The position numbers were made by a program, and so were the translations under genes. 36,157 nt of DNA from Azoarcus sp. (lineage in GTDB: Bacteria; Pseudomonadota; Gammaproteobacteria; Burkholderiales; Rhodocyclaceae): assembly GCA_031277415.1 (NCBI GenBank), contig JAITMK010000011.1:1-36157 (forward strand), read 5' to 3'. Positions 2,143-23,130 of the stretch are shown here, one piece after another (positions within the stretch are counted from its first letter, which is position 1; each line of letters starts with the position of its first letter). The notes under the pieces are model-generated. The model made no database searches, was not told the DNA's origin, and saw only the letters and a list, made by a program, of their open reading frames with translations.

Positions 2143-2761
2143 TTGTTCGAGATGACCATCTTCATGGTTTCGGTGTTGGAGTCCTGGGTGTCATATGGGG
2201 AGTGTTTTTGTTGTCAGTTTGAACGTGCGCTGGGGACTTCCGCAACAAAATCCTCGTGTCAATTTGAACGTGCACTGGGGACTTCTGCAACAAAACATTC
2301 TGCGCGCCGCGAAGCGAAGTCGCAGAATCCGGACCAGAAATTTGCACCGGTCTTCCTTTGCCAAATACTGTCCCGGATCCTGCGCCTTGGTGCTGGATGA
2401 CAGGTGATGGGTAGGGTAAGGGTGATGCAAAGATTCCTTTATTGGGGCTGGGAACATTGCATTTTTCGGCGCCTTCACTGATGGCGTTCGCAAGCTGCCT
2501 CATGGTGTTGTCTTCGTTGACCGAGGGACACTTGTTTAGAAATTTGCGACGGTCTTTTACCGTGTCCGACCATTTCTTGCGCGAAATACTGAAATACCTT
2601 TGGATTGAGGGGGCGCACCCGTTCGGGCGTTGGCCGGTTGATAGACACAGGATTGCCTCACATGCCAGTTTTGTGTCCCCCGTCAGCATTCCTCCGTGGT
2701 TTTGCGCGTTTGCCGTGAAACAGGCCCCGAAGATCATCAGGGCGAATAGGCTTTTTTTCAT
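2143..2761 (-). pseudogene. TrbM-like gene copy 1, disrupted (chimeric C-terminus)
   Basis: MKKSLFALMIFGACFTANAQNHGGMLTGDTKLACEAILCLSTGQRPNGCAPSIQRYFSISRKKWSDTVKDRRKFLNKCPSVNEDNTMRQLANAISEGAEKC matches copies 2 and 3, then diverges. A TrbM fragment reappears at 2143-2190 before the repeat element. ORF 2162..2761 remains open. Confidence 0.75.
2215..2304. repeat. Two tandem copies of a 45-bp unit
   Basis: cagtttgaacgtgcgctggggacttccgcaacaaaa... at 2215 repeated as caatttgaacgtgcactggggacttctgcaacaaaa at 2260, inside the sequence interrupting TrbM copy 1. Confidence 0.85.
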
Positions 2762-2790
2762 GATCACTCCCCTTTGAAAAATGACTGTGC

Positions 2791-2850
2791 TCGCCCGGCG
2801 AATTGCGTGAATGAATGTGCAACATATCGGGCGACCACAGGTCGCCCCTA
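2791..2850 (-). repeat. Interspersed repeat copy between TrbM-like genes
   Basis: tcgcccggcgaattgcgtgaatgaatgtgcaacatatcgggcgaccacaggtcgcccctac; ends in the GTAGGGGCG inverted-repeat core. Confidence 0.85.
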
Positions 2851-2900
2851 CCGCGTCAGTTGAAAACATTCCTTCGCGTGATTGCTGCGTTTTCCTGAGC

Positions 2901-3184
2901 AATCCGGGCGTTATATTTCTCTAATGCCTGCTGGTACTGCGCAGGTTCTACCCAAAACCCTCCGCGCGCCGGGTCACCTACATAAACCGGCACGGTCTCA
3001 TCCAGGTCTGTATATGCGTGGTTCCAGTAAGCGCCGCAATATAATCCGGGCGTTATATTTCTCTAATGCCTGCTGGTACTGCGCAGGTTCTACCCAAAAC
3101 CCTCCGCGCGCCGGGTCACCTACATAAACCGGCGCGGTCGCATCCAGGTCTGTATACGCGTGGTTCCAGTAAGCGCCGCAATAG
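2901..3184. repeat. 142-bp tandem duplication (2901-3042 / 3043-3184) of the TrbM 3' module
   Basis: Both units begin aatccgggcgttatatttctctaatgcctgctggtactgcgcagg and differ at only a few positions; period 142 bp (not a multiple of 3). Confidence 0.92.
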
Positions 3185-3576
3185 CTGGGCATCCTGTTCG
3201 AGATGACCATCTTCGTGGTTTCGGTATTGGGGTCCCAGGCGTATGAACGCAAATTATTGAAGCTGGCAACATCGCATCTTCCGGCGCCTTCACTGATGGC
3301 GTTCACAAGCTGCCTCATGGTGTTGTCTTCGGTCTTGACCGAGGGACACTTGTTCAGAAATTTGCGACGGTCTTTTACCGTGTCCGACCATTTCTTGTGC
3401 GAAATACTGAAATACCTTTGGAGCGAGGGGGTGCACTCGTTCGGGCGTTGGCCGGTTGATAGACACAGGATTGCCTCACATGCCAGTTTTGTGTCCCCCG
3501 TCAGCATTCCGTGGTTTTGCGCGTTTGTCGTGAAACAGGCCCCGAAGATCATCAGGGCGAACAGGCTTTTTTTCAT
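2998..3576 (-). CDS. TrbM-like protein copy 2 (C-terminus frameshifted by the 142-bp duplication)
   Basis: MKKSLFALMIFGACFTTNAQNHGMLTGDTKLACEAILCLSTGQRPNECTPSLQRYFSISHKKWSDTVKDRRKFLNKCPSV...; the tail NARI-ILRRLLEPRIYRPG replaces NARIAQENAAATRKNIFN of copy 3. Confidence 0.8.
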   Translation of the reverse strand: MKKSLFALMIFGACFTTNAQNHGMLTGDTKLACEAILCLSTGQRPNECTPSLQRYFSISHKKWSDTVKDRRKFLNKCPSVKTEDNTMRQLVNAISEGAGRCDVASFNNLRSYAWDPNTETTKMVISNRMPSYCGAYWNHAYTDLDATAPVYVGDPARGGFWVEPAQYQQALEKYNARIILRRLLEPRIYRPG

Positions 3577-3605
3577 GATCACTCCCCTTTGAAAAATGAC
3601 TGCGC

Positions 3606-3666
3606 TCGCCCGGTGAATTGCGTGAATGAATGTGCAACATATCGGGTGACCACAGGTCGCCCCTAC
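3606..3666 (-). repeat. Interspersed repeat copy between TrbM-like genes 2 and 3
   Basis: tcgcccggtgaattgcgtgaatgaatgtgcaacatatcgggtgaccacaggtcgcccctac. Confidence 0.85.
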
Positions 3667-3670
3667 CGCG

Positions 3671-4246
3671 TCAGTTGAAAATATTCTTTCGCGTGGCTGC
3701 TGCGTTTTCCTGAGCAATCCGGGCGTTATATTTCTCTAATGCCTGCTGGTACTGCGCAGGTTCTACCCAAAACCCTCCGCGCGCCGGGTCACCTACATAA
3801 ACCGGCACGGTCGCATCCAGGTCTGTATACGCGTGGTTCCAGTAAGCGCCGCAATAGTTGGGCATCTTGTTCGAGATGATCATCTTCGTGGTTTCGGTAT
3901 TGGGGTCCCAGGCGTATGAACGCAAATTATTGAGGTTGGCAACATCGCATTTTCCGGCGCCTTCACTGACAGCGTTTGCAAGCTGCTTCATGGTGTTGTC
4001 TTCGTTGACCGAGGGACACTTGTCCAGAAATTTGCGGCGGTCTTTCACCGTGTCCGACCATTTTTTGCGCGAAATACTGAAATACTTTTTGATCGAGGGG
4101 GCGCACTCGTCCGGGCGTTGGCCGGTTGATAGACACAGGACCGCCTCACATGCCAGTTTTTTGTCACCCGTCAGCATTCCGTGGTTTTGCGCGTTTGCCG
4201 TGAAACCGGTCCCGAAGATCGCCAGGGCGAATAGGCTTTTTTTCAT
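3671..4246 (-). CDS. TrbM-like conjugal transfer protein, apparently intact copy 3
   Basis: From ATG 4246: signal peptide MKKSLFALAIFGTGFTANAQ, then LTGDKKLACEAVLCLSTGQRPDECAPSIKKYFSISRKKWSDTVKDRRKFLDKCPSV, the TrbM-family core. Confidence 0.82.
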   Translation of the reverse strand: MKKSLFALAIFGTGFTANAQNHGMLTGDKKLACEAVLCLSTGQRPDECAPSIKKYFSISRKKWSDTVKDRRKFLDKCPSVNEDNTMKQLANAVSEGAGKCDVANLNNLRSYAWDPNTETTKMIISNKMPNYCGAYWNHAYTDLDATVPVYVGDPARGGFWVEPAQYQQALEKYNARIAQENAAATRKNIFN

Positions 4247-4274
4247 GATCACTTCCCTTTGAAAAATGATTGAG

Positions 4275-6560
4275 TCAAAGAGACAACTCAGGTTCTTTAC
4301 GCTGAGACTCTTCGTGCACATGCGTAGCGTTTTCCTGCGCGTTGGAATCCGACTGTTCCAACTGCTCCAGGAAATCAGGGTTTTCCGCAGCCTTGTCATA
4401 TTTGGAAATAGCCTCGGTCTGAGCATTCTCTGGTTCGAGCTTTGTCATTTCCTGCACGATGCCACGCCAGTACGCAAGCTTTTCAAGGGCTTCCGGTGTC
4501 CTGTCGGCCAGCGCCGGGTTTTTCTTGAGTTCTTCAAGATTTGCAGTGACGCTGGACGTGGCTACAGTGTGTAATTGCGGCTGGTTCTTGTTCAGATCGT
4601 GGCGCGGGGCGTACTCGGATTTATCTTGTTGCTCCGCGTAATCGGCCTGCCGTTCGCTCACTGGCTGGATATTGTTTGTCGCCCGCTCCTGCCGCAGCAC
4701 TTCGAGCGCGACAAGATCGGCCTTTTTGGGTGAGTAGCCAGTGGTTTTAAGTCCCTGGCTTTCTGCTTCGAGCCACGCTTCCCGGCGAAATTCCTTGGAG
4801 CCCGATAATTTGAGAGTGTTCCATTGCTTGGCCTTTGCCACAGCAATCATGTCACTAACAACCCCACTGTCCGCGCCCGACATTTTTAGCTTGTTGCCGA
4901 GGTCTTCAAAGGCTACGCGCGGCTGCCTTTCCTTCGTGTAAAACTTGCCGTCGACTTCAAGATACCTTTGCGCGACAGAATGCGGCAGGACGAATTCATT
5001 GGCGCCAAGCTCCTTACCGGTTGGCTCGTTCAGATCGATCATGTGCTCCCGCTGCTCTCGTCCCATCTTTGCTTTGAGGATGGACTCGATTTCAGCATTT
5101 CGCACGGCTTGCCCCTCTTCCTCATGGCGCACGCGCCCACCGGCTCCGGGCAATTCGGAGCGTGAGTCCCCGGGCGTCCCGATTTCTGCGCTACTACGCA
5201 GATCTCCAGGCTCTACTGCACCAGACGGGTAATTGGATTCGCGTCCACGCAAATCAAGATCATCGATGGCAAGCAGTTCCGAGCGCGAGTCCTCGGGTGA
5301 TTCAAGCACATCGGCTTCGCTGCGTGCCCTGGCACCGAGCCGATCGAGCGACTCGGCTTCGTCGTTAGCGCTTTTCGGACGATCACTGTGAAGACTGATG
5401 ATGCGCTCTTCACCAAGCACGGCGGCAAACGTTCCGTTTTCGTTAAATCCGTTTTTACTTTCCACGAAAAGCTGAGGCGATACCTTATCGAGAGCGTTTC
5501 GGTAATGCTCGTTCGCCTGAGCGCAAGCCGCCATCTCTTTGAGTTGCCTGTCACGGGCTTGTTCATCATCAAGCAGATCGAGGCGCACCATATCGGCATC
5601 AACCTGTTTAGCGACTTCATCGAGGGGCATGCTTTTTACATGGCCGACTTTCTCAGCCAGGGTTCGTGCGTCGATTTCGGCGAGTATCGACGGGGCAATC
5701 TCTGCAATTTCTTTGCGATAGTACGGATTTGCGGTGGCTTTCTGACCGATTGTGGCTAGCGCCTGTTCTCGTTCTTCTGCGTTGAGCGCGTCAAAGCGAT
5801 CAATGTCCGCATCAGCGGCATCCGTTGCCTCTTGTTTCAACATGTCCTGCACTGTGCGGGCGTTTTTAGCCGTAGCTTCCTCAATGCGGTTATTCATACT
5901 GTATCCTCTGCTTTCCCGCACTTCTTCCTGGTACGGGAAGTGTTGCTGCGTTCGGGTTTGGTCGTGCAGTCCTTGCGCAACCATCCGGGTGATGTTTTCG
6001 AGGTCTGCGGAGGTCATCCGCCGGGGCTGTTCGGCGGTGCACGTTTCATAAAACGATTGCGAGCCCTCCTGACGAATTTGCACTGCTTCCTGTTCGTTGC
6101 CGGGTGCGGAAATCTTTTCGGTGAAGGTTGCATAGACCTCTTCGGCCCTTTCACGCACATCGACGTCCGGATACACCACGTCGACGTGGTTCCATAACCC
6201 GAGAAGCCCACGCTGCTGTCGCGCGGCAATCAGGGCATCGAGGAGGGCATCCTTTTCTTGCGTGGTAAATGTGTTGATACCGTAGTGACCAAGGATTTCA
6301 TGACGCAGGGATTCATTGGCGTCATGTATGTCATTGGTATTGCCTGCAATCAAATTCACCTGACCATGAAATGCCCGTCCATCGCGGCTCACGAACGGTT
6401 TTGGGCTGATCGTGGCCTTGAGGTTCGAAAGGTCGCCGTCGTAATCCGGATAGATATCTTGCGGTTTCTCGCCGATTTTGTAATAAAGGTGGCGAGCCAC
6501 CGGATACTGTTCACAGAAATCCCGGACAACCTGCTGATAGTCGTCAGCGGAGATGGGCAT
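4275..6560 (-). CDS. Large polyvalent protein: N-terminal HExxxH (HEILGHYG) putative metallopeptidase-like domain, C-terminal LPD7-like domain
   Basis: 761 aa; ESLRHEILGHYGINTF and downstream RAEEVYATFTE; C-terminal NEFVLPHSVAQRYLEVDGKFYTKERQPRVAFEDLGNKLKM...MIAVAKAKQWNTLKLSGSKEFRREAWLEAESQGLKTTGYSPKKAD, an LPD7 pattern common next to conjugation genes. Confidence 0.75.
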   Translation of the reverse strand: MPISADDYQQVVRDFCEQYPVARHLYYKIGEKPQDIYPDYDGDLSNLKATISPKPFVSRDGRAFHGQVNLIAGNTNDIHDANESLRHEILGHYGINTFTTQEKDALLDALIAARQQRGLLGLWNHVDVVYPDVDVRERAEEVYATFTEKISAPGNEQEAVQIRQEGSQSFYETCTAEQPRRMTSADLENITRMVAQGLHDQTRTQQHFPYQEEVRESRGYSMNNRIEEATAKNARTVQDMLKQEATDAADADIDRFDALNAEEREQALATIGQKATANPYYRKEIAEIAPSILAEIDARTLAEKVGHVKSMPLDEVAKQVDADMVRLDLLDDEQARDRQLKEMAACAQANEHYRNALDKVSPQLFVESKNGFNENGTFAAVLGEERIISLHSDRPKSANDEAESLDRLGARARSEADVLESPEDSRSELLAIDDLDLRGRESNYPSGAVEPGDLRSSAEIGTPGDSRSELPGAGGRVRHEEEGQAVRNAEIESILKAKMGREQREHMIDLNEPTGKELGANEFVLPHSVAQRYLEVDGKFYTKERQPRVAFEDLGNKLKMSGADSGVVSDMIAVAKAKQWNTLKLSGSKEFRREAWLEAESQGLKTTGYSPKKADLVALEVLRQERATNNIQPVSERQADYAEQQDKSEYAPRHDLNKNQPQLHTVATSSVTANLEELKKNPALADRTPEALEKLAYWRGIVQEMTKLEPENAQTEAISKYDKAAENPDFLEQLEQSDSNAQENATHVHEESQRKEPELSL

Positions 6561-6758: not shown

Positions 6759-9053
6759 TCAAATTCTAAATTTGCGCAGCACGGCGAGACCCTTGTCCAC
6801 CGCCATGATCTGCTCGGGCGTCACCGGCGGCTCACTGGTCAGTCGTAACCATTCCGTCCGGTAGACTTCGGCCAGTTCGGGCGTGTTACGAAGCACGATC
6901 GCGGTTTCAGCATTTCGGTTGTCCGCGCTGGACGTATAGTTGAAGCTGCCAAGCTGGACGTGCTTCTTGTCGGCAACCATGAATTTATGATGCATGGCCG
7001 TATAGTTCGCGCACTTGATGACTGGCACGTTTTTCGAGACCAGGAAATCAACGGCCTTGTAATCCGTCTGGTCATCGTTGTTTTGTGCCCTGTCGACAAC
7101 GATACGCACGTCGACCCCTCGGGCCTTGGCTTCGCCCAGGGCGAGCGCGATTGGGCGCGAGGTTAAGGAATAGGCGGCCACGTACAACTCATGCTGTGCC
7201 GATAAAATCAGGGACATCACTGCCTCCAGGGCGTTTCTTCGAGGCGAAAATCCAACCTCGAAACTCACGCCGCTCCCGAGCGACTGGTCGCGGATTGCCC
7301 CGGAGAAATGCAGCGTCTCGGAAACGTCCGGTTCGATGGTGTTTTCCGGTTGTTCCGTGCTGCTCTGATCGGGGGCAGGGGGCAGGGGCATGTTTGCCCG
7401 GCGCATGAATACCGGCTCTTTGTACCACCTGATTTTGTCCACGAGGGCCGGAACCATGTTTTCCAGGCTGATGATTTCTTTTTCGATGCCAATTGCCTTG
7501 ACTTCCTGCGGCAGCAGCACCGCGCGGCGCTGGTCGCTCTCGGACTCACTCTGGCCGCCGTTCTTGCTCAAACCAAGCTGGCGAGACTTCGACGTGGATT
7601 TCTCGGTCATGTAACCGATCATTTCGCTGTAGTCCTTCGCGTCCTGATCGTCGCGCGGCGCATAACAGACTTGCAGCGCCATGTTTGTGAGCATGGTTTG
7701 CGCGCCGGTCTTGTCATAGAGCTTGCGATCCTCGACCTGCGACTTGCTCTGGAAAATCAGCAACAGGCGCATGTTGTAGCCTGCCATGTACGCGCAGGCC
7801 TTTTCGATAATGGCAACCCTTCCCATTGCCGGGAATTCATCGAGCAGCAAGAGGCACTGGTATTTCAGTTCCGGGTTTTCCTCGGGCAATTCATCCATGT
7901 TCAGTACCAGCAACTGCTGGAAGAACAGGTTCAGAAATTGGCCGAACTTGTCGATGTTTGCTGGCCGGATAACAACGTAGATCGACATCCGGCGCTTGCG
8001 CACATCGCGCAGGTCAAACGTGCTTTTGCTCGTGGCCTGCGCCGTGATCGGATCTGAAAAGATGCCCAGGGGCTTGTCAAACGAAATGTCGATGGACGAA
8101 CGCATCTTTTCGACCGTTTTCGCGTAGGCGAGTAGATGCTGAATACAATCGGCGCTCAACGGCTCATAGCTTTTGCGTGATTCGACATAGGCCAGAAACG
8201 TTTTTTCGTCGGCCAGGAAAGACAGGGAGGTCTTGTACTTCTTGATCGTGGCAATGTTGAGGTTGTCGCGTTCCTTTGCCGTGTCGAGAATGTAAAGCGC
8301 AAGGCCGAGGAAAAGACTCTCCGCCGTGCTGTTCCATACGTCATCGCTGGGCGGATAAAGGATGTTGGTGATGCTCATCAAATCTTTTATCCGAAGCATC
8401 GGGTCATGCCGGACATAATCCAGCGGGTTCCAGCAATCCGTTTTAAATTTTTCGTCATCCGGGGCGAACCTGTAGACTTCCTGGCCGCAAGCCGCGCGGA
8501 ATCCGGCGGTGACCTTGTAGTTTTCCTCTTTCACATCGAGGACGACCACCGAATCCCGGTAATGCAAAAGATTCGGAATAACAATGCCGACACCCTTGCC
8601 GGAACGGGTCGGCGCGGACAAAAACATGAACTGCTGACCACGAAAAAGCAAAAATTGCTTTCCTGCTTTGCCTACGACCAGCGACGGGTACTTGTCATCA
8701 TTTTTGTCTGGTTGAAGCAAGCCGGATTTCCGGAGATCGGCGGTGCTGGCCAACTTTGCCGATCCGTGTAGTTCCCGGTGCTTCGGCAGAAAAACGGCAA
8801 TACCCACTCCGCCGAACAGGAGTACCGGCAACCCGAAACTGACGATAAGCGCCAGAATGCCAAAGCCCTTGATCTTTTTGTTCTGGCTGTACTTCACTAC
8901 GTTGATCGGCAGCGACATCGAGGGCGTGACTCCGGTTTTGCCGGAAAGCATCCGGCCAGAAACCGAGAGCAGAGCAAGCGAAGTGCCGAGCGCCATGAAC
9001 ACGAGAAACGCAACGGCAATAGCGATTTTCTGCGGCTTCAGGGAGGAGTTCAT
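6759..9053 (-). CDS. virD4: VirD4/TraG-type coupling ATPase fused to a C-terminal phospholipase-D (Nuc-type) nuclease domain
   Basis: 764 aa; Walker A FLSAPTRSGKGVGIVIPNLL, Walker B CLLLLDEFPAMGRV, IFQSKSQVED. C-terminal EVGFSPRRNALEAVMSLILSAQHELYVAAYSLTSRPIALALGEAKARGVDVRIVVD...MHHKFMVADKKHVQLGSFNYTSSADNRNAE (HxKxxxxD, HKD motif). Confidence 0.92.
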   Translation of the reverse strand: MNSSLKPQKIAIAVAFLVFMALGTSLALLSVSGRMLSGKTGVTPSMSLPINVVKYSQNKKIKGFGILALIVSFGLPVLLFGGVGIAVFLPKHRELHGSAKLASTADLRKSGLLQPDKNDDKYPSLVVGKAGKQFLLFRGQQFMFLSAPTRSGKGVGIVIPNLLHYRDSVVVLDVKEENYKVTAGFRAACGQEVYRFAPDDEKFKTDCWNPLDYVRHDPMLRIKDLMSITNILYPPSDDVWNSTAESLFLGLALYILDTAKERDNLNIATIKKYKTSLSFLADEKTFLAYVESRKSYEPLSADCIQHLLAYAKTVEKMRSSIDISFDKPLGIFSDPITAQATSKSTFDLRDVRKRRMSIYVVIRPANIDKFGQFLNLFFQQLLVLNMDELPEENPELKYQCLLLLDEFPAMGRVAIIEKACAYMAGYNMRLLLIFQSKSQVEDRKLYDKTGAQTMLTNMALQVCYAPRDDQDAKDYSEMIGYMTEKSTSKSRQLGLSKNGGQSESESDQRRAVLLPQEVKAIGIEKEIISLENMVPALVDKIRWYKEPVFMRRANMPLPPAPDQSSTEQPENTIEPDVSETLHFSGAIRDQSLGSGVSFEVGFSPRRNALEAVMSLILSAQHELYVAAYSLTSRPIALALGEAKARGVDVRIVVDRAQNNDDQTDYKAVDFLVSKNVPVIKCANYTAMHHKFMVADKKHVQLGSFNYTSSADNRNAETAIVLRNTPELAEVYRTEWLRLTSEPPVTPEQIMAVDKGLAVLRKFRI

Positions 9054-11432: not shown

Positions 11433-12231
11433 TTTTACTCCCCTCGGTGCGCACTGCACCGTACTCGCCAGCGTTGGTACGATTTACGGCGGGCTGTTTG
11501 TAATTGCGGTTGTGAATTTCAATGACCTGGTTGTTCAGACGCGCACGCACGACGCGGATAACTTCCTGCAGGACGATGGTCTCCTTTGCCTTGTCATCAA
11601 CGTTGTAGTTGACCAGGGCCTCGGAGCCGTCAGGCAGCACCTTGTAGAAAACAGGTAACTCCCCGGCATGGTTGTATTCCAGCCGGGTGAACCGGCCATC
11701 ATCCCATGCGGCAGTCGGCGCGAGCAGAACATCCGATCCGTTGCCTTTCCAGATGTAGTTTGTGTTGATTGTGCGCTTCTCGGCACGGGACGAGGTTGTC
11801 AGGCCAAGCCGCCGACGCACGGCGGCAATCTCGGCGGCCTGGTTTTCAGGGTAAATGAACCGGAAAATGTAGGTAGGCGGATTGGCTTTTGTGGCGGGAC
11901 GAAGGTCAAAGGCGTATGTGCGCTTGTTCGTTACCAGTACGATGTTTGAACCATTCTCCAAAGCGGCAGGCTTCAGGCTGACGCTGTTGCCTTTTGCTCC
12001 AACGTGCCATGCACCGGCATCACCCATTCCGAGCAGGGATTTTGGCGTTTGTAGCGTTTCATCCGGGGCGAACTGAATAAGGCTTGCGAAACCAACGCTT
12101 GTATAAATGACATAAACCTTGTTCGGGTCATACACGACTTCACGGATACGCGAGTCTTTGGCGGCAGCAGGCGTGGTAAGGCCAAAAGTCAGACATAGCG
12201 CCGAGAACCAGAGAATTTTGCTGAATTTCAT
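11425..12231 (-). CDS. virB9: VirB9/TrbG T4SS protein
   Basis: Signal peptide; REVVYDPNKVYVIYTSVGFASLIQFAPDETLQ...NYIWKGNGSDVLLAPTAAWDDGRFTRLEY. Confidence 0.93.
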   Translation of the reverse strand: MKFSKILWFSALCLTFGLTTPAAAKDSRIREVVYDPNKVYVIYTSVGFASLIQFAPDETLQTPKSLLGMGDAGAWHVGAKGNSVSLKPAALENGSNIVLVTNKRTYAFDLRPATKANPPTYIFRFIYPENQAAEIAAVRRRLGLTTSSRAEKRTINTNYIWKGNGSDVLLAPTAAWDDGRFTRLEYNHAGELPVFYKVLPDGSEALVNYNVDDKAKETIVLQEVIRVVRARLNNQVIEIHNRNYKQPAVNRTNAGEYGAVRTEGSKNE

Positions 12232-12677
12232 GGGGTTTCGCCTTTGTAAAAACGAATGAGGGCTGCCACACCGGAGGCGGGATGGGGTTTGTTGTCCTGT
12301 GACCGGTAGAAATCATTGACAATGCGGGTTAATTCAGAAAACGTAATAACGCCTTCCGTTTCCAGGTGTCTGCCCAGTTCAACTTTTATTTCCGTGTCGA
12401 TGTCTCTGCTCGATGCGATGTTCAACAAAAGGTCATCAGGAATCGCGGCGTTTCCAATAAAAACGGCCCCTGTCAAATAGAGGATGAACCAGCTTCCAAA
12501 AAGGATGGAAATCAAAATTGCTCCCGAGAGGGCGGCAATAGTTGTACCCAGAAATTGAACGCTCAGAATGGTGCCGAGTGTCACGCCTATAACCGCCACT
12601 ACTAACGCGCGGCGAGTATTATTTGCCCGTTTTTCGGCGTTACGTCTTTCGATCATTCTGAAAATTTCTGTATTCAT
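12228..12677 (-). CDS. 149-aa membrane protein of unknown function between virB8 and virB9
   Basis: Two hydrophobic segments (ALVVAVIGVTLGTILSVQFLGTTIAALSGAILISILFGSWFILYLTGAVFIG); 4-bp overlap with virB9. Confidence 0.75.
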   Translation of the reverse strand: MNTEIFRMIERRNAEKRANNTRRALVVAVIGVTLGTILSVQFLGTTIAALSGAILISILFGSWFILYLTGAVFIGNAAIPDDLLLNIASSRDIDTEIKVELGRHLETEGVITFSELTRIVNDFYRSQDNKPHPASGVAALIRFYKGETP

Positions 12678-13469: not shown

Positions 13470-14507
13470 TTATCCTGGCTTTACGCCGTTTGAACCTTTA
13501 AGTAAATTCATGACGGCGGAACCAAGACGTCCTGCACCGCCAAGCGCTTTTCCACCCGTCCACTTGCCTGCGGCTGCCGCTCCTGCAGCTCCCTTTCCGG
13601 CGAGTTTCGCCGCGCCCCTGCCTGCCCGAGAAGCTACACCGCCGCCGCCTACCGTGCCTGGATTGATGCCGCCTGCGCTGAGGGAGGAGGCGAGGGCTTT
13701 ACAGGTTAACAATAGAAAAATCAGCAACCAATTCACAAGTGAGGCCTTAACACATGTAGTAAAAGACATATCTTCGAATGTCGTACCGTTGAAACCAAAG
13801 ATTGTCTTTGAAATTTCGATACCGAACAAACCGACAATAGCAACCAAAACAGGTAACAACGCATACGAGACGACACTATTCATCCATGACGAAAAGTATT
13901 GGCGTGTTGCAGGGAACATAAGACATGCAAAAAAGATAGGGCCAACAGCAGCCACTAACATTGTGCCAACCTTCGCAATAATAAGAAGAACGCCCGCAGC
14001 AACCAAGAAGGGGATAAGACCAATATAAATAACAAGTGATTTGAAAAACCAAAGAAGAGGCTGAGTAACATTATCTGATCCATCCCAAAACCCCAGGCCT
14101 TGAATGCGATCATAATCAGTATCTATAATCTTCATATAATGCGCCACAAGGTCATCAAGTCCCGCCGCCGGACTCGGTGATCCGCTTATAGCTGATGAAA
14201 GATCATTGCCGAGGCTTTGTATCATAGGAATTACAAGGTTTTGGTAATTGTTTATATTAAGGCCAAGGCCAATTACAATAGAGAACGCAACCCAGCGCAT
14301 CCAAACGTCCCACACAGGATTGGATGAATTACCACGCATCATGTCTACAACAACCAAAATGATGTAGATGCCAAAACAGATAGCAACGAGCGGCATGATA
14401 ACGGTGGCGATCCCGTGCGAGGCCGAGATCGCCGTGTTAGCAATTTCCGTGTCGACTATGCTAATAAGAGACGCTACGGGTTTGGCTGTGTCAAAGGAGA
14501 ACGACAT
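13470..14507 (-). CDS. virB6: VirB6/TrbL T4SS membrane protein
   Basis: 345 aa polytopic protein; VAAVGPIFFACLMFPATRQYFSSWMNSVVSYALLPVL, Gly/Ala-rich C-terminus. Confidence 0.88.
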   Translation of the reverse strand: MSFSFDTAKPVASLISIVDTEIANTAISASHGIATVIMPLVAICFGIYIILVVVDMMRGNSSNPVWDVWMRWVAFSIVIGLGLNINNYQNLVIPMIQSLGNDLSSAISGSPSPAAGLDDLVAHYMKIIDTDYDRIQGLGFWDGSDNVTQPLLWFFKSLVIYIGLIPFLVAAGVLLIIAKVGTMLVAAVGPIFFACLMFPATRQYFSSWMNSVVSYALLPVLVAIVGLFGIEISKTIFGFNGTTFEDMSFTTCVKASLVNWLLIFLLLTCKALASSLSAGGINPGTVGGGGVASRAGRGAAKLAGKGAAGAAAAGKWTGGKALGGAGRLGSAVMNLLKGSNGVKPG

Positions 14508-14509
14508 GA

Positions 14510-14902
14510 CTACTTGCTCCGCGTGTATCCCTTTGAATCAAGGCATGCATGATCTGTATGTGCAGTGTCAACGTATTTCGTAATTACACTGCCTGATTCA
14601 TCATGCGGCCAGCATTTCGTCGGAAGTACCATTCTTCTCGCCTTTTTCGGTAGTTGCACTTTTGCAAAAAGATCCGGGGTTGGTTCCCCGAGCTCTCCAC
14701 GGTCGGCAGCAGCAGAGGCGGCCATCGCCGCATCGATGTCATGCAGCCAATCGCCCAACTTCCATGTGTTGAGCCTGTCCATATGCACCTTTGCTTCTGG
14801 TGACAAATTTGCGCTTTCTTTGTCCTCAAAGCAGCCGCTCAATGTGACTGCCAAAAGAACCCCGATTAACAGTCGGGTCTGTTGAATTGTTGACATGACC
14901 AT
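14510..14902 (-). CDS. Lipoprotein paralog 1, candidate entry-exclusion (EexN-like)
   Basis: Lipobox LSGC; LSPEAKVHMDRLNTWKLGDWLHDIDAAMAASAAADRGELGEPTPDL; lies between virB5 and virB6, where pKM101 carries eex. A start at 14896 is also possible. Confidence 0.75.
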   Translation of the reverse strand: MVMSTIQQTRLLIGVLLAVTLSGCFEDKESANLSPEAKVHMDRLNTWKLGDWLHDIDAAMAASAAADRGELGEPTPDLFAKVQLPKKARRMVLPTKCWPHDESGSVITKYVDTAHTDHACLDSKGYTRSK

Positions 14903-15546
14903 TCCCTCCTTGCTTCCTGTGCTGCTTGTTTGATTTCTTCCTGGCTGATCTTCTCGTAGGCTTGCATGGCCTGCATGTTTGCCTGAACCGTTGCCTGCTC
15001 GACGGCCAGCCTGTTAGCCAGGTCGAGCTTGTCGCCGGGGTCTTTTGCGCTATTGATTCGGGTCATCAGGTTGCCGATGTTCTCAATGCGCGCATTCGTC
15101 TGGTCGTACATGCTTTTGAACGCTGCCCGCTGACCGGCCATCTCGTCGTACATCTTGTTGAGCTTCGGCGCACCTTCAAGCGTTGGAAGTTTTCCGCGTT
15201 CAATTTTGTAGCCTGCAAGACTCTTGGCGTTCGAGACGGCCTTCTGCATTTCAGCGGGAATCTGGTTTTTCGGAATCGCGTCGTAAATTTGGCCGAGATT
15301 GCTTGCGCCCTTGAGAGCGTTGTAGGTTTTCTGGGCCTGTTGAAATTGCTGCACCAGTTGGTTGTACTGTTGGGTCATTCCCTGAACTTGTTGCCCCCAC
15401 TGCGCCAGGGTTTCAACCTGCTCCGTAATGGACTGGCCCAATTCGGCGGCGGAAATAACCGGGATGCCCCCGGCGCTTGCCACTGGCATTACCCCGGCCA
15501 TAGCGGTTGTCATACCCGCAACCAGGACGGTTTTCTTAAGGTTCAT
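14866..15546 (-). CDS. virB5: VirB5-family T4SS minor pilus protein
   Basis: Signal peptide; QVETLAQWGQQVQGMTQQYNQLVQQFQQAQKTYNALKGASNLGQIYDAIP; order virB4-virB5-eex-virB6. Confidence 0.9.
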   Translation of the reverse strand: MNLKKTVLVAGMTTAMAGVMPVASAGGIPVISAAELGQSITEQVETLAQWGQQVQGMTQQYNQLVQQFQQAQKTYNALKGASNLGQIYDAIPKNQIPAEMQKAVSNAKSLAGYKIERGKLPTLEGAPKLNKMYDEMAGQRAAFKSMYDQTNARIENIGNLMTRINSAKDPGDKLDLANRLAVEQATVQANMQAMQAYEKISQEEIKQAAQEARREWSCQQFNRPDC

Positions 15547-15588
15547 GGTTCCTCCTTTCTGGGTGGTTTCAGCGGGATTGCCGCTGTT

Positions 15589-15656
15589 GTCAGAGTCGTG
15601 CTGCTACAGCCGTCTCGGTTTGCTGGGGGGGCTCTGTTTTTTAGCATGTTTGCGTA
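15589..15656 (-). pseudogene. Fossil of the virB4 3' end
   Basis: tgtcagagtcgtgctgctacagccgtctcggtttgctgggggggctctgttttttagcatgtttgcgtaa parallels the true virB4 3' end at about 17190-17266. Confidence 0.8.
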
Positions 15657-15731
15657 ATCTCCGTTTCGATTGTCCCTGTTACAGAAGAATCCGGCGCGTC
15701 TGGATTAAAAGAAAACGCCATGATGGGTTTC

Positions 15732-16127
15732 CTACTTTCCTCGTTTGTATCCGGCAGCATCCAAACACGCATGATCCGTGTGTGCGGTGTCTATCATCGT
15801 CTTGGTAGTGGGATCGCCCTGTTTCCATCGTGGCCAGCAGTCTGCCACTGAACCACTGGAAGACATGTTGTCAGCGCGCCATGCCAGTTCAAGCTTGCCA
15901 GCCAGGTCCGGGGATAGCGTGCCAAGGTCTCCACGTCTTTCGGCCTCCAAAACGGCTTTGGCGGCATCAATATCATGGAGCCAGTCAACCAGCTTCCATT
16001 TGTTGAGTCTCTGGATATGCACTTTCGCCTCTGGCGACAGGTCGTCATCCTGACAACCACACAACATGACGGCTGCCGCAAGGCCACAAATCAACATCCG
16101 GGTTTTTTGAACTGCATACATTCCCAT
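15732..16127 (-). CDS. Lipoprotein paralog 2 (divergent), candidate exclusion lipoprotein
   Basis: MLCGC lipobox; LSPEAKVHIQRLNKWKLVDWLHDIDAAKAVLEAERRGDLGTLSPDLAGKLELA...HTDHACLDAAGYKRGK. Confidence 0.75.
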   Translation of the reverse strand: MGMYAVQKTRMLICGLAAAVMLCGCQDDDLSPEAKVHIQRLNKWKLVDWLHDIDAAKAVLEAERRGDLGTLSPDLAGKLELAWRADNMSSSGSVADCWPRWKQGDPTTKTMIDTAHTDHACLDAAGYKRGK

Positions 16128-16178
16128 TCTCTCCTTGCTTCCTGACTTGCCTGCTGACTTCTTTGCAGGCTTGCATGA

Positions 16179-16565
16179 TTACTTGCTCCGCTTATAGCCC
16201 TGCGCATCGAGACACGCATGATCTGTATGTGCAGTGTCAACGTATTTCGAAATTACACTGCCTAATGCATCATGCGGCCAACATTTCGTCGGGAGTACCA
16301 TTCTTATCGCCTTTTTCGGTAGTTGCACTTTTGCAAGAAGATCCGGGGTTGGTTCCCCGAGGTCTCCACGGTCGGCAGCAGCAGAGGCGGCCATCGCCGC
16401 ATCGATGTCATGCAGCCAATCGCCCAACTTCCATGTGTTGAGCCTGTCCATGTGCACCTTTGCCTCGGGAGACAAATTTGCCGTCTCGCTGTCTCCGCAG
16501 CCGCCAATCAGAACGGCGGCAGAGAAAACGCCGATTAACAGCCGGTTTCGTCGAATTGCGTACAT
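16179..16565 (-). CDS. Lipoprotein paralog 3 (near-identical to paralog 1)
   Basis: LIGGC lipobox; LSPEAKVHMDRLNTWKLGDWLHDIDAAMAASAAADRGDLGEPTPDLLAKVQLPKKAIRMVLPTKCWPHDALGSVISKYVDTAHTDHACLDAQGYKRSK. Confidence 0.78.
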   Translation of the reverse strand: MYAIRRNRLLIGVFSAAVLIGGCGDSETANLSPEAKVHMDRLNTWKLGDWLHDIDAAMAASAAADRGDLGEPTPDLLAKVQLPKKAIRMVLPTKCWPHDALGSVISKYVDTAHTDHACLDAQGYKRSK

Positions 16566-16622
16566 CCCCGTTCTCTCCTTGCTTCCTGACCTGCCTGCTG
16601 ACTTCTTTGCAGGCTTGCATGA

Positions 16623-17021
16623 TTACTTGCTGCGTTTGTATCCGGCCGCATCCAGACACGCATGATTTGTGTTGGCGGTCGTGGATCTTCCACTTTCTGG
16701 CCAGCAATATATGACCGAAGATGTTTTCTCGTCATAAATGCCTCTGGGGCCAGCCAATTTTGTGGCTTGTCGTGCAAATTCCAGTTTTGCGACAAGGTCA
16801 GGGGTTGGGTGTCCGAAGTCGCCATTATTTGCCGCCTGCATGACAACCCTGGCGGTATCTACATCGTGTAGCCAATCTCCCAATTTAAGGGTTTCAACTT
16901 TTTTCCAAAGCGCTGCCGCCTCGGGAGACAAATTTGCCGTCTCGTTGTCTCCGCAGCCGCCAATCAGAACGGCGGCAGAGAAAACGCCGATCAACAGGCG
17001 GTTTCGTCGAATTGCATACAT
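16623..17021 (-). CDS. Lipoprotein paralog 4 (divergent central region)
   Basis: From ATG 17021: MYAIRRNRLLIGVFSAAVLIGGCGDNETANLSPEAAALWKKVETLKLGDWLHDVDTARVVMQAANNGDFGHPTPDLVAKLEFARQATKLAGPRGIYDEKTSSVIYCWP...NHACLDAAGYKRSK. Confidence 0.78.
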   Translation of the reverse strand: MYAIRRNRLLIGVFSAAVLIGGCGDNETANLSPEAAALWKKVETLKLGDWLHDVDTARVVMQAANNGDFGHPTPDLVAKLEFARQATKLAGPRGIYDEKTSSVIYCWPESGRSTTANTNHACLDAAGYKRSK

Positions 17022-17176
17022 TTCCGCTCTCTCCTTGCTTCCTGACTTGGCTCGCTGATTTCCTTGCAGGCTTGCACGGCCTGCATGTTTGCCCGAACCG
17101 TTGTCTGCCCGATGGCAAGGCGGTTTGACAGACCGGGTTTGCGGCCGGGGTCTTGGGCGCTGTTGATGCGGGTCAT
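16991..17176 (-). pseudogene. Fossil of the virB5 3' end
   Basis: MTRINSAQDPGRKPGLSNRLAIGQTTVRANMQAVQACKEISEPSQEARRERKCMQF parallels VirB5 MTRINSAKDPGDKLDLANRLAVEQATVQANMQAMQAYEKISQEEIKQAAQEARREWSCQQF. Confidence 0.88.
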
Positions 17177-17197
17177 CAGGTTGTCGCGGTGTCAGAG

Positions 17198-19642
17198 TCA
17201 TGCTGCTACGGCCTCTTCTGTTTTGGTTTGCTGGGGAGGTTTCTGTTTTTTAGCTTGTTTGCGTAAGGCGTGGTAGGCCGGTATCCAGTCGTCCGGATGA
17301 TCTCCGGCCTGCGCTTTTGCCGCTTCCAACAAGGGAAATTCTTCTGCGGCCATTGCAAACACTGCGATGTATTCGCCCAGGCCGTCCAGGTTCATTTTTG
17401 CCATTGCCGACTGGCTTCCTTGTTTGACCATGAACATCCGGCTCTGAAGCCCAAGTTTTTTGATTTTCTTGAACTCTTTGAGAGTGATGCCGAACCGCGA
17501 ATAGCCTCCGCCATCCGGGGTTTTGAATTCGGCGTCGGGGTTTGGCAGATAGATTTTTGTCGGAGTTTGCTGCATGACAGCGGGAAGCAGCGGACTCTTG
17601 AGTATGTCTTCCGGCGATTGCGTGACCAACAAAATGAACTCATCGCGACGGCGGCCTGTCTTGAGGCTGTCCAGGATTTGTGCTGCCGTTGTGGGATATG
17701 CCATAGGCAGCCAGCATTCTTCGACGATGGTTGCCAGGAGACCGCCCCTTTCACGCTGCATAAGGGTTTTCAGGTGAAACAAGTATGAAAGAAGCGGCTC
17801 GGTGGCTGGATGATTCGGCACCAGGAAGTCCGAAACGTCAAATCCGACACGTTGAAAATCGCGCCAGTCAAAAGCGTTTGTTTCATTATCCAGGGCGTAG
17901 GCGTAGCGGCCATCGCCGTCCTCGGTGTAGCACCATTGCTCCAGACGGCGGCGCAGACAGTTTTCGCCCCGGTCAGGAATGGACTGGAGCAGAACGCCGA
18001 ACCGCCTCAGGTGGAAGGGGATGTTTGTAAGCAGGTTGTCGACCGCCTTTTTGATGTCGGCAATATCTTCTGCGTTCTCTTCGTCGGCAGGCCGTCCAAA
18101 CCGGCCACAAGCTCCAACAAGGTCGTTCAGAAACGAGCGATTGAAGGACGTATCCGGCAGTTGGAACGGGTTCAATCCTGTAGGCTCGCCGCTACGCAGG
18201 GTGAAGTACGTACCGCCGACGGCTTCGATGAAACCGCGCATCGAGCCATCCTTGTCGACAGCAAAGAGTTTGCAGGACCACCTGACAAGGAACGCCAGGA
18301 GAGATGTTTGAAGCGTTGTTTTTCCCGCGCCGGTTGCGCCGCAGATAAAGGTGTGACCAGCGCGCTTTTCGCCGTGGCTGTCCAACTCCAGCAGGGAGTA
18401 ATGGAAATTGAAATGGAGCACTCCGCCTACGGTAGTCTGTACCGGAACAACGGCGGAACCGTCCCCGATGGGGTTGCCCGTGGCCTTGCCCGAACTATAG
18501 GTATTCAGGCTGAACATGCTGAAGAGGTTGCGCGTTGTCTTCGGCATTGGCCGAGGCCTGCGCCTGGTGTTTCCAGGAAACATACTGAAGAACGTTTCCG
18601 GGGCGGAAAGCATGGCCGGAATGAAGAGCGCCCCGCATGAACCTGACAGAGTTGTGCGCGCCGTCGCGCCCCGGTCTTCGGCTTGCCGGGCAGACGTGCC
18701 GTGCACCATGAGCGCGCCGTGCAGTTCTCCAAAGTAGATCGTTCCGTCTTGAATCTTGCCCTTGGCAACCTCCATTTCAGCCATTTCTTCCACGGCTTCG
18801 TCCCCGGCGCTTTCCATCTTGTTCAACGCCTGGTTAATCATCTGAATCGCGGACGCGGCAGTGATAAAGGTGAATGAGAACGCCATGAGAAACGGAAACC
18901 GGAGTTCGAGCATGGGGTTCAATCGGCCACGAGTCGACCTCTTCGGGAAGTCTTTGAGGTCGTAGAAGGTCGTGAAGCGATGGCCGCCGTCGGGGAACCT
19001 GGTTTCCATCACCCGGTAGCCGTGGTGATGGATGCTGGTTTCGACCGCCTGGTAGAGCGGCAGGGATGTGACGGGGACGCGCTCCCAAAACCCGTTGTAC
19101 AGGTAAGCGATGAATTCGTAGACCTCGGAAAAATCGAGACCGTTGTGCTGATACATTGAAAGGACTTCACACTCGTAGAGACGCAGCCCTTGCACGGTCA
19201 TTTGCTGGATTTCTTCGAGTTCCCGGACGGCTTCCTGGAGGGTGTCGTTGCTGCCCGGTTTAAGGATGATGGCAATGTAGAAATCGTTTTCAAACACATC
19301 GGCGGTCAGGAACCGCTTCATGTACTGGTCTGAGAATTGTTGCAGCCATTTGTAATCGAACTTGTAGTCTGTGCTGAACTCGGTCTTGTAATGATCGAGG
19401 ATGCACCACACGGCCAGCCGCCCGCCAACTGTCTTGGCAAGACTCATGAAAACGTCATTCAGCGCGTCATACTGATTTTCCAGCATGGCGTCACTGATGA
19501 CTTCAAACGGAACACCTCTCAGTCGCAGGAAAAAGGCCACGCGCCCATCTTCGAGCGATACTACCGTGTCGCTGACATGGTAGTTGTACCGTGGAAGTTG
19601 TTCCTCACCGGCGAACTGCCGCTTTAATAGCTGACTCAACAT
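17198..19642 (-). CDS. virB4: VirB4 T4SS ATPase
   Basis: 814 aa; Walker A HTFICGATGAGKTTLQTSLLAFLVRW; LVTQSPEDILKSPLLPAVMQQTPTKIYLPNPDA. Confidence 0.96.
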   Translation of the reverse strand: MLSQLLKRQFAGEEQLPRYNYHVSDTVVSLEDGRVAFFLRLRGVPFEVISDAMLENQYDALNDVFMSLAKTVGGRLAVWCILDHYKTEFSTDYKFDYKWLQQFSDQYMKRFLTADVFENDFYIAIILKPGSNDTLQEAVRELEEIQQMTVQGLRLYECEVLSMYQHNGLDFSEVYEFIAYLYNGFWERVPVTSLPLYQAVETSIHHHGYRVMETRFPDGGHRFTTFYDLKDFPKRSTRGRLNPMLELRFPFLMAFSFTFITAASAIQMINQALNKMESAGDEAVEEMAEMEVAKGKIQDGTIYFGELHGALMVHGTSARQAEDRGATARTTLSGSCGALFIPAMLSAPETFFSMFPGNTRRRPRPMPKTTRNLFSMFSLNTYSSGKATGNPIGDGSAVVPVQTTVGGVLHFNFHYSLLELDSHGEKRAGHTFICGATGAGKTTLQTSLLAFLVRWSCKLFAVDKDGSMRGFIEAVGGTYFTLRSGEPTGLNPFQLPDTSFNRSFLNDLVGACGRFGRPADEENAEDIADIKKAVDNLLTNIPFHLRRFGVLLQSIPDRGENCLRRRLEQWCYTEDGDGRYAYALDNETNAFDWRDFQRVGFDVSDFLVPNHPATEPLLSYLFHLKTLMQRERGGLLATIVEECWLPMAYPTTAAQILDSLKTGRRRDEFILLVTQSPEDILKSPLLPAVMQQTPTKIYLPNPDAEFKTPDGGGYSRFGITLKEFKKIKKLGLQSRMFMVKQGSQSAMAKMNLDGLGEYIAVFAMAAEEFPLLEAAKAQAGDHPDDWIPAYHALRKQAKKQKPPQQTKTEEAVAA

Positions 19643-21425: not shown

Positions 21426-21995
21426 ATGGCACAAACACCCGCACCCGATTCAGCAACGCGCTACGAGGCAGCAATAGACGCCATCGACCAGGAGGTGGCA
21501 AGGATAACCGCAGAGCATGTCCGGGAGACAAGGCGGGAGACGAATGGGGAGCCTTCAAGCCGTGCTATTTCGGAATACCTCGAGTCCTGTGTATCGTCGC
21601 TCATTTTGCTGAAGCAATACCTGGGCCGCAGGGACACGGCAGCCATTGACGCCATTCTGGACGGGTCTCTCATTTTGAAAGAGGCCCCGAAAATGCCCAA
21701 TACAAAGGAAGGCGTCACCACGCCCCCCGCATTCGATCCGGCGGCCAAAGCCGATCCGGTGATGCGTTACGTCCTGGCACTGGAAGACATCAATATGGCG
21801 TCGGCAAGAATGTCAACAAAGTGTTTCCACGAGGAGGACCGGGAGAACCCGAGCCCTGCCATTCTGGCATACCTCAATTCCCGTACGCCGTCGCTTTATT
21901 TGTTAGAACAGCACTTGAGGCACGAAGACACGGTTGCCATAGACGCGATCCTGAAAGGGTTTCTCTTCCCGATAGAAGGCCCCCGCAATGCCTGA
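21426..21995 (+). CDS. Putative partner (antitoxin candidate) of the zeta toxin, internally duplicated
   Basis: 189 aa, good RBS (aaaaaaggagcacatcatc); two repeats: AISEYLESCVSSLILLKQYLGRRDTAAIDAILDGSLILKEAPK and AILAYLNSRTPSLYLLEQHLRHEDTVAIDAILKGFLFPIEGPR; overlaps the toxin start. Confidence 0.75.
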   Translation: MAQTPAPDSATRYEAAIDAIDQEVARITAEHVRETRRETNGEPSSRAISEYLESCVSSLILLKQYLGRRDTAAIDAILDGSLILKEAPKMPNTKEGVTTPPAFDPAAKADPVMRYVLALEDINMASARMSTKCFHEEDRENPSPAILAYLNSRTPSLYLLEQHLRHEDTVAIDAILKGFLFPIEGPRNA

Positions 21996-23130
21996 TTATA
22001 TTCCGCTGACCGATAAAGAAATCGCGCAGCTCGCGCGGAGGCATTATCGTAATGACATTGCGCCTTTTACCAGGGCTCAAGAGAGTCCCACGATGATGCT
22101 TGTCGGCGGCCAGCCGGGGGCGGGTAAATCGTATGCGACAGAAACCGCAAAGGCTGAACGGCATCAAACGGGCGGGGTCGCTCATATCGATGCCGACAAA
22201 TTCCATCCACGAATAAATGACTTCAAAAAAGAAACATTTACAGCCTCTCAAGCACACGACGACTGCAAAAAAATAGCCCTGCTGGTGCGTGATCATGCGT
22301 TTGAAGGCAAGCGGAATATCCTGGAAGAAGGGCTTTTCAGGCGCCCCGATGCGTTGTCGAGCCTTGCCGAACGCGCCCATCGGTCTGGCTATAAATGTGA
22401 AATCATTGCCATTGCCGTATCGCGCGAACAAAGCCGGTTGAGCGTACTGGAGCGGCGCGAGGTTTTTCGCGATACCCGTGGACTCGCGCGCGATGTCCCC
22501 GAAAGCAAACAAGACGCTGCCTATAAAGGCTTCACAGAAACCCTGCTGAAAGACGCGGACAAATTCGACCGTGTGCGTGTGATGGGTCGCTCGGGTGAGT
22601 TGTACTACGACAGTAAAGGGGGCGGGCTGTGCCAGAGCGTTTATGAAGGGCTGGAAAAAGGGCGCAGCCTTTCCAGCAAACAGGTGGCTGCGCTCACCCG
22701 GCAATGGGAAGTGCTGCGCGAGAGTTGCGTCGATAAAGGCATTCCTGCCGAAGAACTTGCCCGCGTCGACGAGGGCATCCAGTGTTTCAATGCATTCAAG
22801 AGCGCCGAGGAATACCGTCACGGCATGCGGTGCCTGGAAGAGAATTACCGTTTGCTCGTAAAGGATCCGCATTACGCCGACCACAGCGAGGCAGAACGGC
22901 TCAAGGCGGCGTTCTATTGGGGCGCCATTGAAAAGAAAGATGCCATCGAAGGCCATCCAACCGATTTATATGCCATTGACTCGATGTTATCCCACCGTGA
23001 AACCCTCCAGCGCCTGCCCGATGTTGCCGAGATAGAGGGTTTGGCGCCGCCCAGCAGGGAAAATGCCGAAAGCAGAGAAAATGCCGAAAAAGGGCAGGAC
23101 CGGTCGAATGAAGACGGTTTGGAGTTGTGA
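21988..23130 (+). CDS. Zeta-toxin-family kinase
   Basis: MMLVGGQPGAGKSYATETAK, HIDADKFHP, EEGLFRRPDALSSLAERAHRSGYKCEIIAIAVSREQSRLSVLER; additional ~190-aa C-terminal region. Confidence 0.88.
   Translation: MPDYIPLTDKEIAQLARRHYRNDIAPFTRAQESPTMMLVGGQPGAGKSYATETAKAERHQTGGVAHIDADKFHPRINDFKKETFTASQAHDDCKKIALLVRDHAFEGKRNILEEGLFRRPDALSSLAERAHRSGYKCEIIAIAVSREQSRLSVLERREVFRDTRGLARDVPESKQDAAYKGFTETLLKDADKFDRVRVMGRSGELYYDSKGGGLCQSVYEGLEKGRSLSSKQVAALTRQWEVLRESCVDKGIPAEELARVDEGIQCFNAFKSAEEYRHGMRCLEENYRLLVKDPHYADHSEAERLKAAFYWGAIEKKDAIEGHPTDLYAIDSMLSHRETLQRLPDVAEIEGLAPPSRENAESRENAEKGQDRSNEDGLEL

Follow-up and report, generated by a model that had tools for sequence, protein, structure and literature searches.

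Why does a conjugation operon carry four related lipoprotein genes where its nearest relatives carry a single one? The question is raised by contig JAITMK010000011.1 of Azoarcus sp. (assembly GCA_031277415.1, 2.63 Mb), which was analyzed over its whole length of 36,157 nucleotides and is called the window below. On its minus strand, where all window features lie unless marked (+), the contig encodes a VirB-type conjugation operon that resembles mating-pair formation type T (MPF_T). The genes are transcribed in the order virB4, copy 4, copy 3, copy 2, virB5, copy 1 and virB6, the numbered copies being the lipoprotein genes. The three virB genes are intact. VirB4 (17198–19642) matches TIGR00929 (E = 1.6e-136) and is 72% identical to VirB4 of plasmid pVEIS01; virB5 (14866–15546) matches PF07996 of the type IV secretion system (T4SS) with E = 3.6e-23 and TIGR02791 with E = 9.4e-21; and virB6 (13470–14507) matches the TrbL/VirB6 family PF04610 (E = 6.5e-38).

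The first-pass annotation had proposed four paralogous lipoproteins here, and all four are present and intact, 128–132 residues in size and 57–81% identical in amino acids to copy 3. Copy 4 (16623–17021) encodes 132 residues with the lipobox IGGC. Copy 3 (16179–16565) is chimeric; its codons 1–35 are copy-4-like and its core is copy-1-like. Copy 2 (15732–16121) and copy 1 (14510–14896) lie within slightly longer open reading frames (ORFs; 15732–16127 and 14510–14902, respectively), and the alignment sets the homologous starts at MYA/MST, at 16121 and 14896. An AAGGAG-type ribosome-binding site precedes each gene. By pattern scan, rather than by a signal-peptide predictor, a lipobox was found in all four copies; it is typical in copies 1, 3 and 4 and atypical (LCGC) in copy 2. 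The proteins of this family end in a conserved extension (CW...TDHACLDxxGYKR), and every copy has kept the motifs WLHDxDxA and HACLD. Terminator-like hairpins within copies 1 and 3 are no commoner than in shuffled sequences.

The position of copy 1 bears on function. It sits exactly between virB5 and virB6, the place considered ancestral, and its start overlaps the end of virB5 by 31 nt; the overlap is identical in pVEIS01 and pPLS206. Copies 2–4 are located between virB4 and virB5, which is explained by tandem duplication. In IncN plasmids, eex also lies between virB5- and virB6-like genes (PMC8923210), so the eex-type placement suggested by the first-pass annotation holds for copy 1. Like copy 1, the trbK genes of RP4 and pKPC_UVA01 encode lipoproteins and lie between trbJ (VirB5-type) and trbL (VirB6-type). 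TrbK/Eex of pKPC_UVA01 is also large (151 residues); acting in the recipient, it lowers entry in a dose-dependent manner (PMC8923210). Based on the shared position with IncN eex and IncP trbK, together with the dose dependence of the pKPC_UVA01 protein, entry exclusion is by analogy the most likely function of the lipoproteins. In our view, the array probably represents an entry-exclusion lipoprotein locus, amplified and recombining, that belongs to a conjugative MPF_T element. We infer that the lipoproteins would be exported and lipid-anchored in the periplasm of cells carrying the element, where, as has been suggested for Eex proteins, they would bind to a component of a related, incoming transfer apparatus or block it, and so prevent redundant entry; additional copies would raise the dose or broaden the range of excluded donors.

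Several observations weigh against this interpretation. None of the four copies has a convincing match in Pfam, NCBIfam or PHROGs, nor in PADLOC, and the EexN model NF033894 does not match them directly. At ∼130 residues, the window lipoproteins are nearly twice the size of EexN (∼75 residues) and carry the extra C-terminal tail. Different from TrbK, which has Asp at position +2, the residue following the lipid cysteine is F, Q, G and G; this Asp is thought to hold TrbK in the inner membrane. AlphaFold2 produced no confident fold for the four copies (predicted local distance difference test score 53.7). A lipobox scan of the operons in the window, pVEIS01 and pPLS206 identified this family as the only sensibly placed lipoprotein. 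Finally, a single core is common to copies 1 and 3; this counts against four specificities and leaves at most three recognition types.

The relation to EexN could be traced through intermediates. The pVEIS01 orthologue matches NF033894 with E = 2.4e-7 and 30.6 bits, under the curated cut-off of 33 bits, and the pPLS206 orthologue matches weakly (E = 5e-4). After removal of the signal peptides, the mature parts of the pVEIS01 and pPLS206 proteins gave an hhalign score of 34 against the EexN alignment, compared to at most 15.8 in 200 column shuffles and 12.4 for the reversed profile. The window set matches the pVEIS01/pPLS206 pair with E = 4e-14; aligned directly with EexN by hhalign, it gave no match. 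The expected profile similarity to EexN is thus absent for the four copies themselves and present via the pVEIS01 orthologue. The family scores below the curated cut-off and is linked to EexN by transitivity only; it shares the lipid-attachment signal (by pattern scan) and the gene position between virB5 and virB6. Because the pVEIS01/pPLS206 pair connects the window set to EexN, we regard the family, on sequence grounds, as a distant, extended relative of IncN Eex that falls below the limit for formal membership. As in the EexN/Eex system of the IncN plasmid pKM101, a small lipoprotein gene lies between the virB5 and virB6 homologues; different from that system, the window contains four copies and none of them matches the profile directly. 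The link to TrbK is fainter, as the pVEIS01 orthologue gave only a trace match to TrbK_RP4 (E = 0.019). In the same genome, NF033894 does detect a genuine EexN gene at another place, 4067–4228 of locus L016 (genome G000, contig C148; 75 bits). Its neighbors look like ruvC and yebC, no recognizable T4SS genes were seen nearby, and it appears to be an orphan exclusion gene.

The same lipobox scan raises another reading, in which this T4SS subtype uses the lipoprotein as its VirB7-type outer-membrane lipoprotein, or for both roles, and the array multiplies a structural core-complex subunit. Neither the window nor pVEIS01 or pPLS206 encodes a lipoprotein between virB6 and virB8, and the scan does detect the small VirB7-like lipoprotein of Advenella. 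Like the VirB7 lipoproteins of MPF_T systems, the family consists of small T4SS lipoproteins, and the lack of any other VirB7 candidate in this operon type makes a structural role conceivable; the missing inner-membrane retention Asp points the same way. Large VirB7 subunits occur in Xanthomonadales-like T4SSs (PMC6759196). However, the orthologues resemble EexN, and the gene precedes virB6 as in IncN rather than following it. The window proteins also differ from VirB7 lipoproteins in length, and neither Pfam nor NCBIfam yielded a VirB7 family match. We know of no reason for a VirB7 subunit to exist as four diverged, recombining copies, and we consider this reading unlikely, though it keeps some weight.

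The make-up of the operon bears on a further proposal, namely that the lipoproteins, comparable to the X-Tfi proteins of Xanthomonadales, provide immunity to toxins that a killing T4SS injects. Some X-Tfi immunity proteins are predicted to be periplasmic lipoproteins (PMC6759196), and an array of immunity genes would be easily understood. However, the operon is conjugative in character: VirD4 and TrbM match their profiles, and genes nearby correspond to genes of conjugative plasmids. Next to the lipoproteins, no effector gene was seen, and their position and EexN link fit exclusion; immunity is very improbable.

How the array arose can be read from the gene fragments between the copies. Upstream of copy 4, positions 17028–17186 contain the 3′ end of another virB5, a remnant that begins at about codon 157 and is joined to the virB4 3′ flank. 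It shares 79% nucleotide identity with intact virB5 over 165 sites; the alignment of 17186–17028 with 15076–14903 scored 182, whereas the highest of 500 dinucleotide shuffles reached 61. Two shorter virB5-tail scraps of 57 nt each carry the ribosome-binding sites of copy 3 (16566–16622) and copy 2 (16122–16178), and both contain the same novel joint, TCATGCAAGCC. The scraps are 95% identical to each other, 82–84% identical to the remnant (82% for the copy-3 scrap) and 74% identical to intact virB5; their gap is 16 nt long at the site where that of the remnant measures 15 nt. Since the scraps are nearer to the remnant than to intact virB5 and the gap is matched, copies 2 and 3 would descend from the copy-4 unit. 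Upstream of intact virB5 lies a 3′ remnant of virB4 (15588–15657), with 80% identity over 69 columns and a score of 83, compared to a maximum of 43 in 300 shuffles. All of these virB5 and virB4 fossils had been predicted by the first-pass annotation, and in self-alignment they fall where it had placed them.

One fossil had been overlooked. Directly after the stop codon of copy 2, an ATG opens the sequence MAFSFNPDAPDSSVTGTIETEI, which resembles the virB6 start MSFSFDTAKPVASLISIVDTEI (codons 1–22); this 5′ remnant of virB6 (first ∼22–25 codons) spans 15658–15721. In an ungapped comparison, chosen after the ATG and the similar start had been noticed, 41 of 66 nucleotides agree, the highest value among 72,182 window 66-mers apart from virB6 itself; the next value is 34. 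When gaps were allowed and the entire virB6 gene was searched locally, the match was not significant (its score was attained in 66 of 1000 shuffles), and the remnant is therefore identified by register and position. The virB6 and virB4 remnants meet at 15658/15657, forming a virB6′::virB4′ novel joint, and virB4 and virB6 are intact outside it, as expected of a tandem duplication. The first-pass annotation had envisaged duplication of a block from the virB4 end through virB5 to the lipoprotein, loss of the extra virB5 and later amplification of the lipoproteins. This scheme stands except for the block limits: because the virB6 fossil (15721–15658) directly follows copy 2, the original event would have been a tandem duplication of ∼1.2 kb, reaching from the virB4 3′ end through the virB6 5′ end.

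From the sequences, we infer the following order of events. A single lipoprotein gene, overlapping the end of virB5 and preceding virB6, would represent the ancestral state. Tandem duplication of the ∼1.2-kb block (virB4 3′ end, virB5, lipoprotein, virB6 5′ end) would then have produced a second set, in which most of the extra, first virB5 was deleted, apparently between short CGGCAAYC repeats; the deletion joint lies at such a repeat, which is found both downstream of the virB4 remnant and within virB5. In a third step, the unit made of the virB5 tail with its ribosome-binding site and the lipoprotein would have been duplicated again, giving copies 4, 3 and 2. A lipoprotein duplicate can work only if it carries the virB5 tail, because the ribosome-binding site is located within virB5. 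The copy 4/copy 3 joint is the same as the copy 3/copy 2 joint, AAGTAATCATGCAAGCC, and it looks like a crossover at CATG microhomology between the lipoprotein/virB6 border and virB5. Later ectopic recombination would have placed the copy 1 core into copy 3. In windows, codons 1–35 of copy 3 match copy 4 at 90–96%, and the rest matches copy 1 at 84–100%, mostly above 90%; the break near codon 35 is supported by a maximum chi-square of 97 (permutation p = 0.0002). This pattern indicates that copy 3 is a hybrid, with the predicted signal peptide of copy 4 and the core of copy 1. The longest exact repeat within the array is only 89 bp, which makes it unlikely that the array was produced by chimeric assembly.

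Are all four copies in use? With clear virB4, virB5 and virB6 fossils in the block and an unusual lipobox in copy 2, copies 2–4 could be non-functional duplication relics, neutral leftovers beside a copy 1 that alone matters. However, all four lipoprotein frames are open, whereas the virB remnants have decayed, and the copies retain their ribosome-binding sites and the WLHDxDxA and HACLD motifs despite near-saturated silent sites in the diverged pairs. The whole-gene ratio of nonsynonymous to synonymous substitution rates (dN/dS) between copies is 0.15–0.37 where computable; for several pairs, dS could not be computed or had reached saturation. Taken together, the open frames, the conserved motifs and the dN/dS values suggest that constraint acts on all four copies. 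This supports the use of all of them and gives no support to adaptive diversification; we judge it quite improbable that copies 2–4 are relics.

A harder question is whether extra copies bring more of one activity or several different ones. If dose alone mattered, the additional copies would raise the amount of a single exclusion activity and their divergence would be drift. The dose dependence of TrbK/Eex exclusion (PMC8923210), the 93% nucleotide identity of the copy 1/copy 3 core and the dN/dS values below 1 agree with this. However, ∼40% of residues in copies 2 and 4 are different from those in copies 1/3, with indels flanking the CW motif on both sides, and pure dosage would more readily preserve near-identical copies. 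We regard the dose explanation as a serious possibility, though we lean against it. As for an exclusion repertoire, in which several lipoproteins with different recognition cores are held in one operon, reshuffled by recombination and directed at several donor types, we advance it only tentatively. The first-pass annotation had combined entry-exclusion amplification with diversified specificities; the amplification of the lipoprotein genes is borne out and their role in exclusion is probable, but diversification is not supported, given dN/dS below 1 where computable and the core common to copies 1 and 3. For that shared core dN/dS is 0.57, but nine codon differences are too small a basis for a judgment. 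Positive selection among the copies was considered as well and is unsupported.

The nearest complete transfer regions are those of Verminephrobacter eiseniae pVEIS01 and Xylella taiwanensis pPLS206 (VirB4 identity 72% and 70%, respectively). Each carries one lipoprotein gene at the ancestral place, annotated as hypothetical protein. Like the window, both plasmids show the same gene order, the 31-nt overlap with virB5 and the WLHD/YLHD and DHACLD motifs; different from the window, they possess a single copy of 97–105 residues and no remnants. Two same-genus genomes also bear single lipoproteins. At a contig end, G014 has a truncated virB5, an intact lipoprotein gene and the first part of the next gene, which is probably virB6 as judged by eye; G008 contains a broken lipoprotein and a virB5 tail. 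The suggested comparison of copy number gave one copy in pVEIS01, pPLS206 and both same-genus loci. VirB4 of this subtype is missing in G008, and G014 has only a 31% homologue. At these loci (L014 6204–6830 and L015 5802–5363), the virB5 tail and one lipoprotein remain without a matching VirB4, and the intact G014 lipoprotein follows an iscX-like gene, as judged by eye. VirB5 is 71% identical to its G014 counterpart, compared to 79% between the remnant and virB5; the duplication therefore looks younger than the split from G014.

No second array was found among 100 relatives, 398 order-level genomes (query lipoprotein A1) and 369 class-level genomes (query A2); the order-level search returned one weak match (E = 7e-4). 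Scans of genome contigs with A1 and VirB4, and of viral contigs with A1, detected no relatives. Among plasmids, an EexN query gave 904 matches, spread over 893 records; a plasmid with more than one exclusion lipoprotein of the EexN kind is therefore rare. No eex array is described in the open-access literature that we found on eex duplication and on tandem or paralogous exclusion genes.

Other features of the same element were also noted. TrbM/KikA-type genes form a tandem triplication (2162–4426) with units of ∼815 bp that are 91–95% identical; the copy at 2162–2902 is truncated, and the longest exact repeat is 115 bp. The VirD4 coupling protein (6759–9053) contains a C-terminal phospholipase-D-type domain (PLDc_2, E = 3.9e-22). 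Both pVEIS01 and pPLS206 share this fusion (E about 5e-20), which is thus characteristic of the T4SS lineage. Between virB8 and virB9, a 149-residue membrane protein to which no family was assigned (12228–12677) is encoded; it is not at that place in pVEIS01 or pPLS206. At 21426–23130 (+), a zeta-toxin family gene (E = 1.7e-36), present on pVEIS01 and pPLS206 too, is preceded by a 189-residue ORF without known family, which may be an antitoxin candidate.

An exclusion locus is commonly described as a single gene, or as an entry and a surface factor. The locus reported here is of a known type; what is unusual is its amplified, chimeric form with a well-preserved duplication history. It defines an uncharacterized, extended EexN relative, annotated as hypothetical, in the T4SS lineage of pVEIS01 and pPLS206. 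If the repertoire idea is true, one element would exclude several donor types simultaneously. The array, with its four genes, one of them chimeric, and its still readable fossils, would offer a natural example of exclusion that evolves through gene amplification and the exchange of cores, and it shows a possible route to a wider exclusion range.

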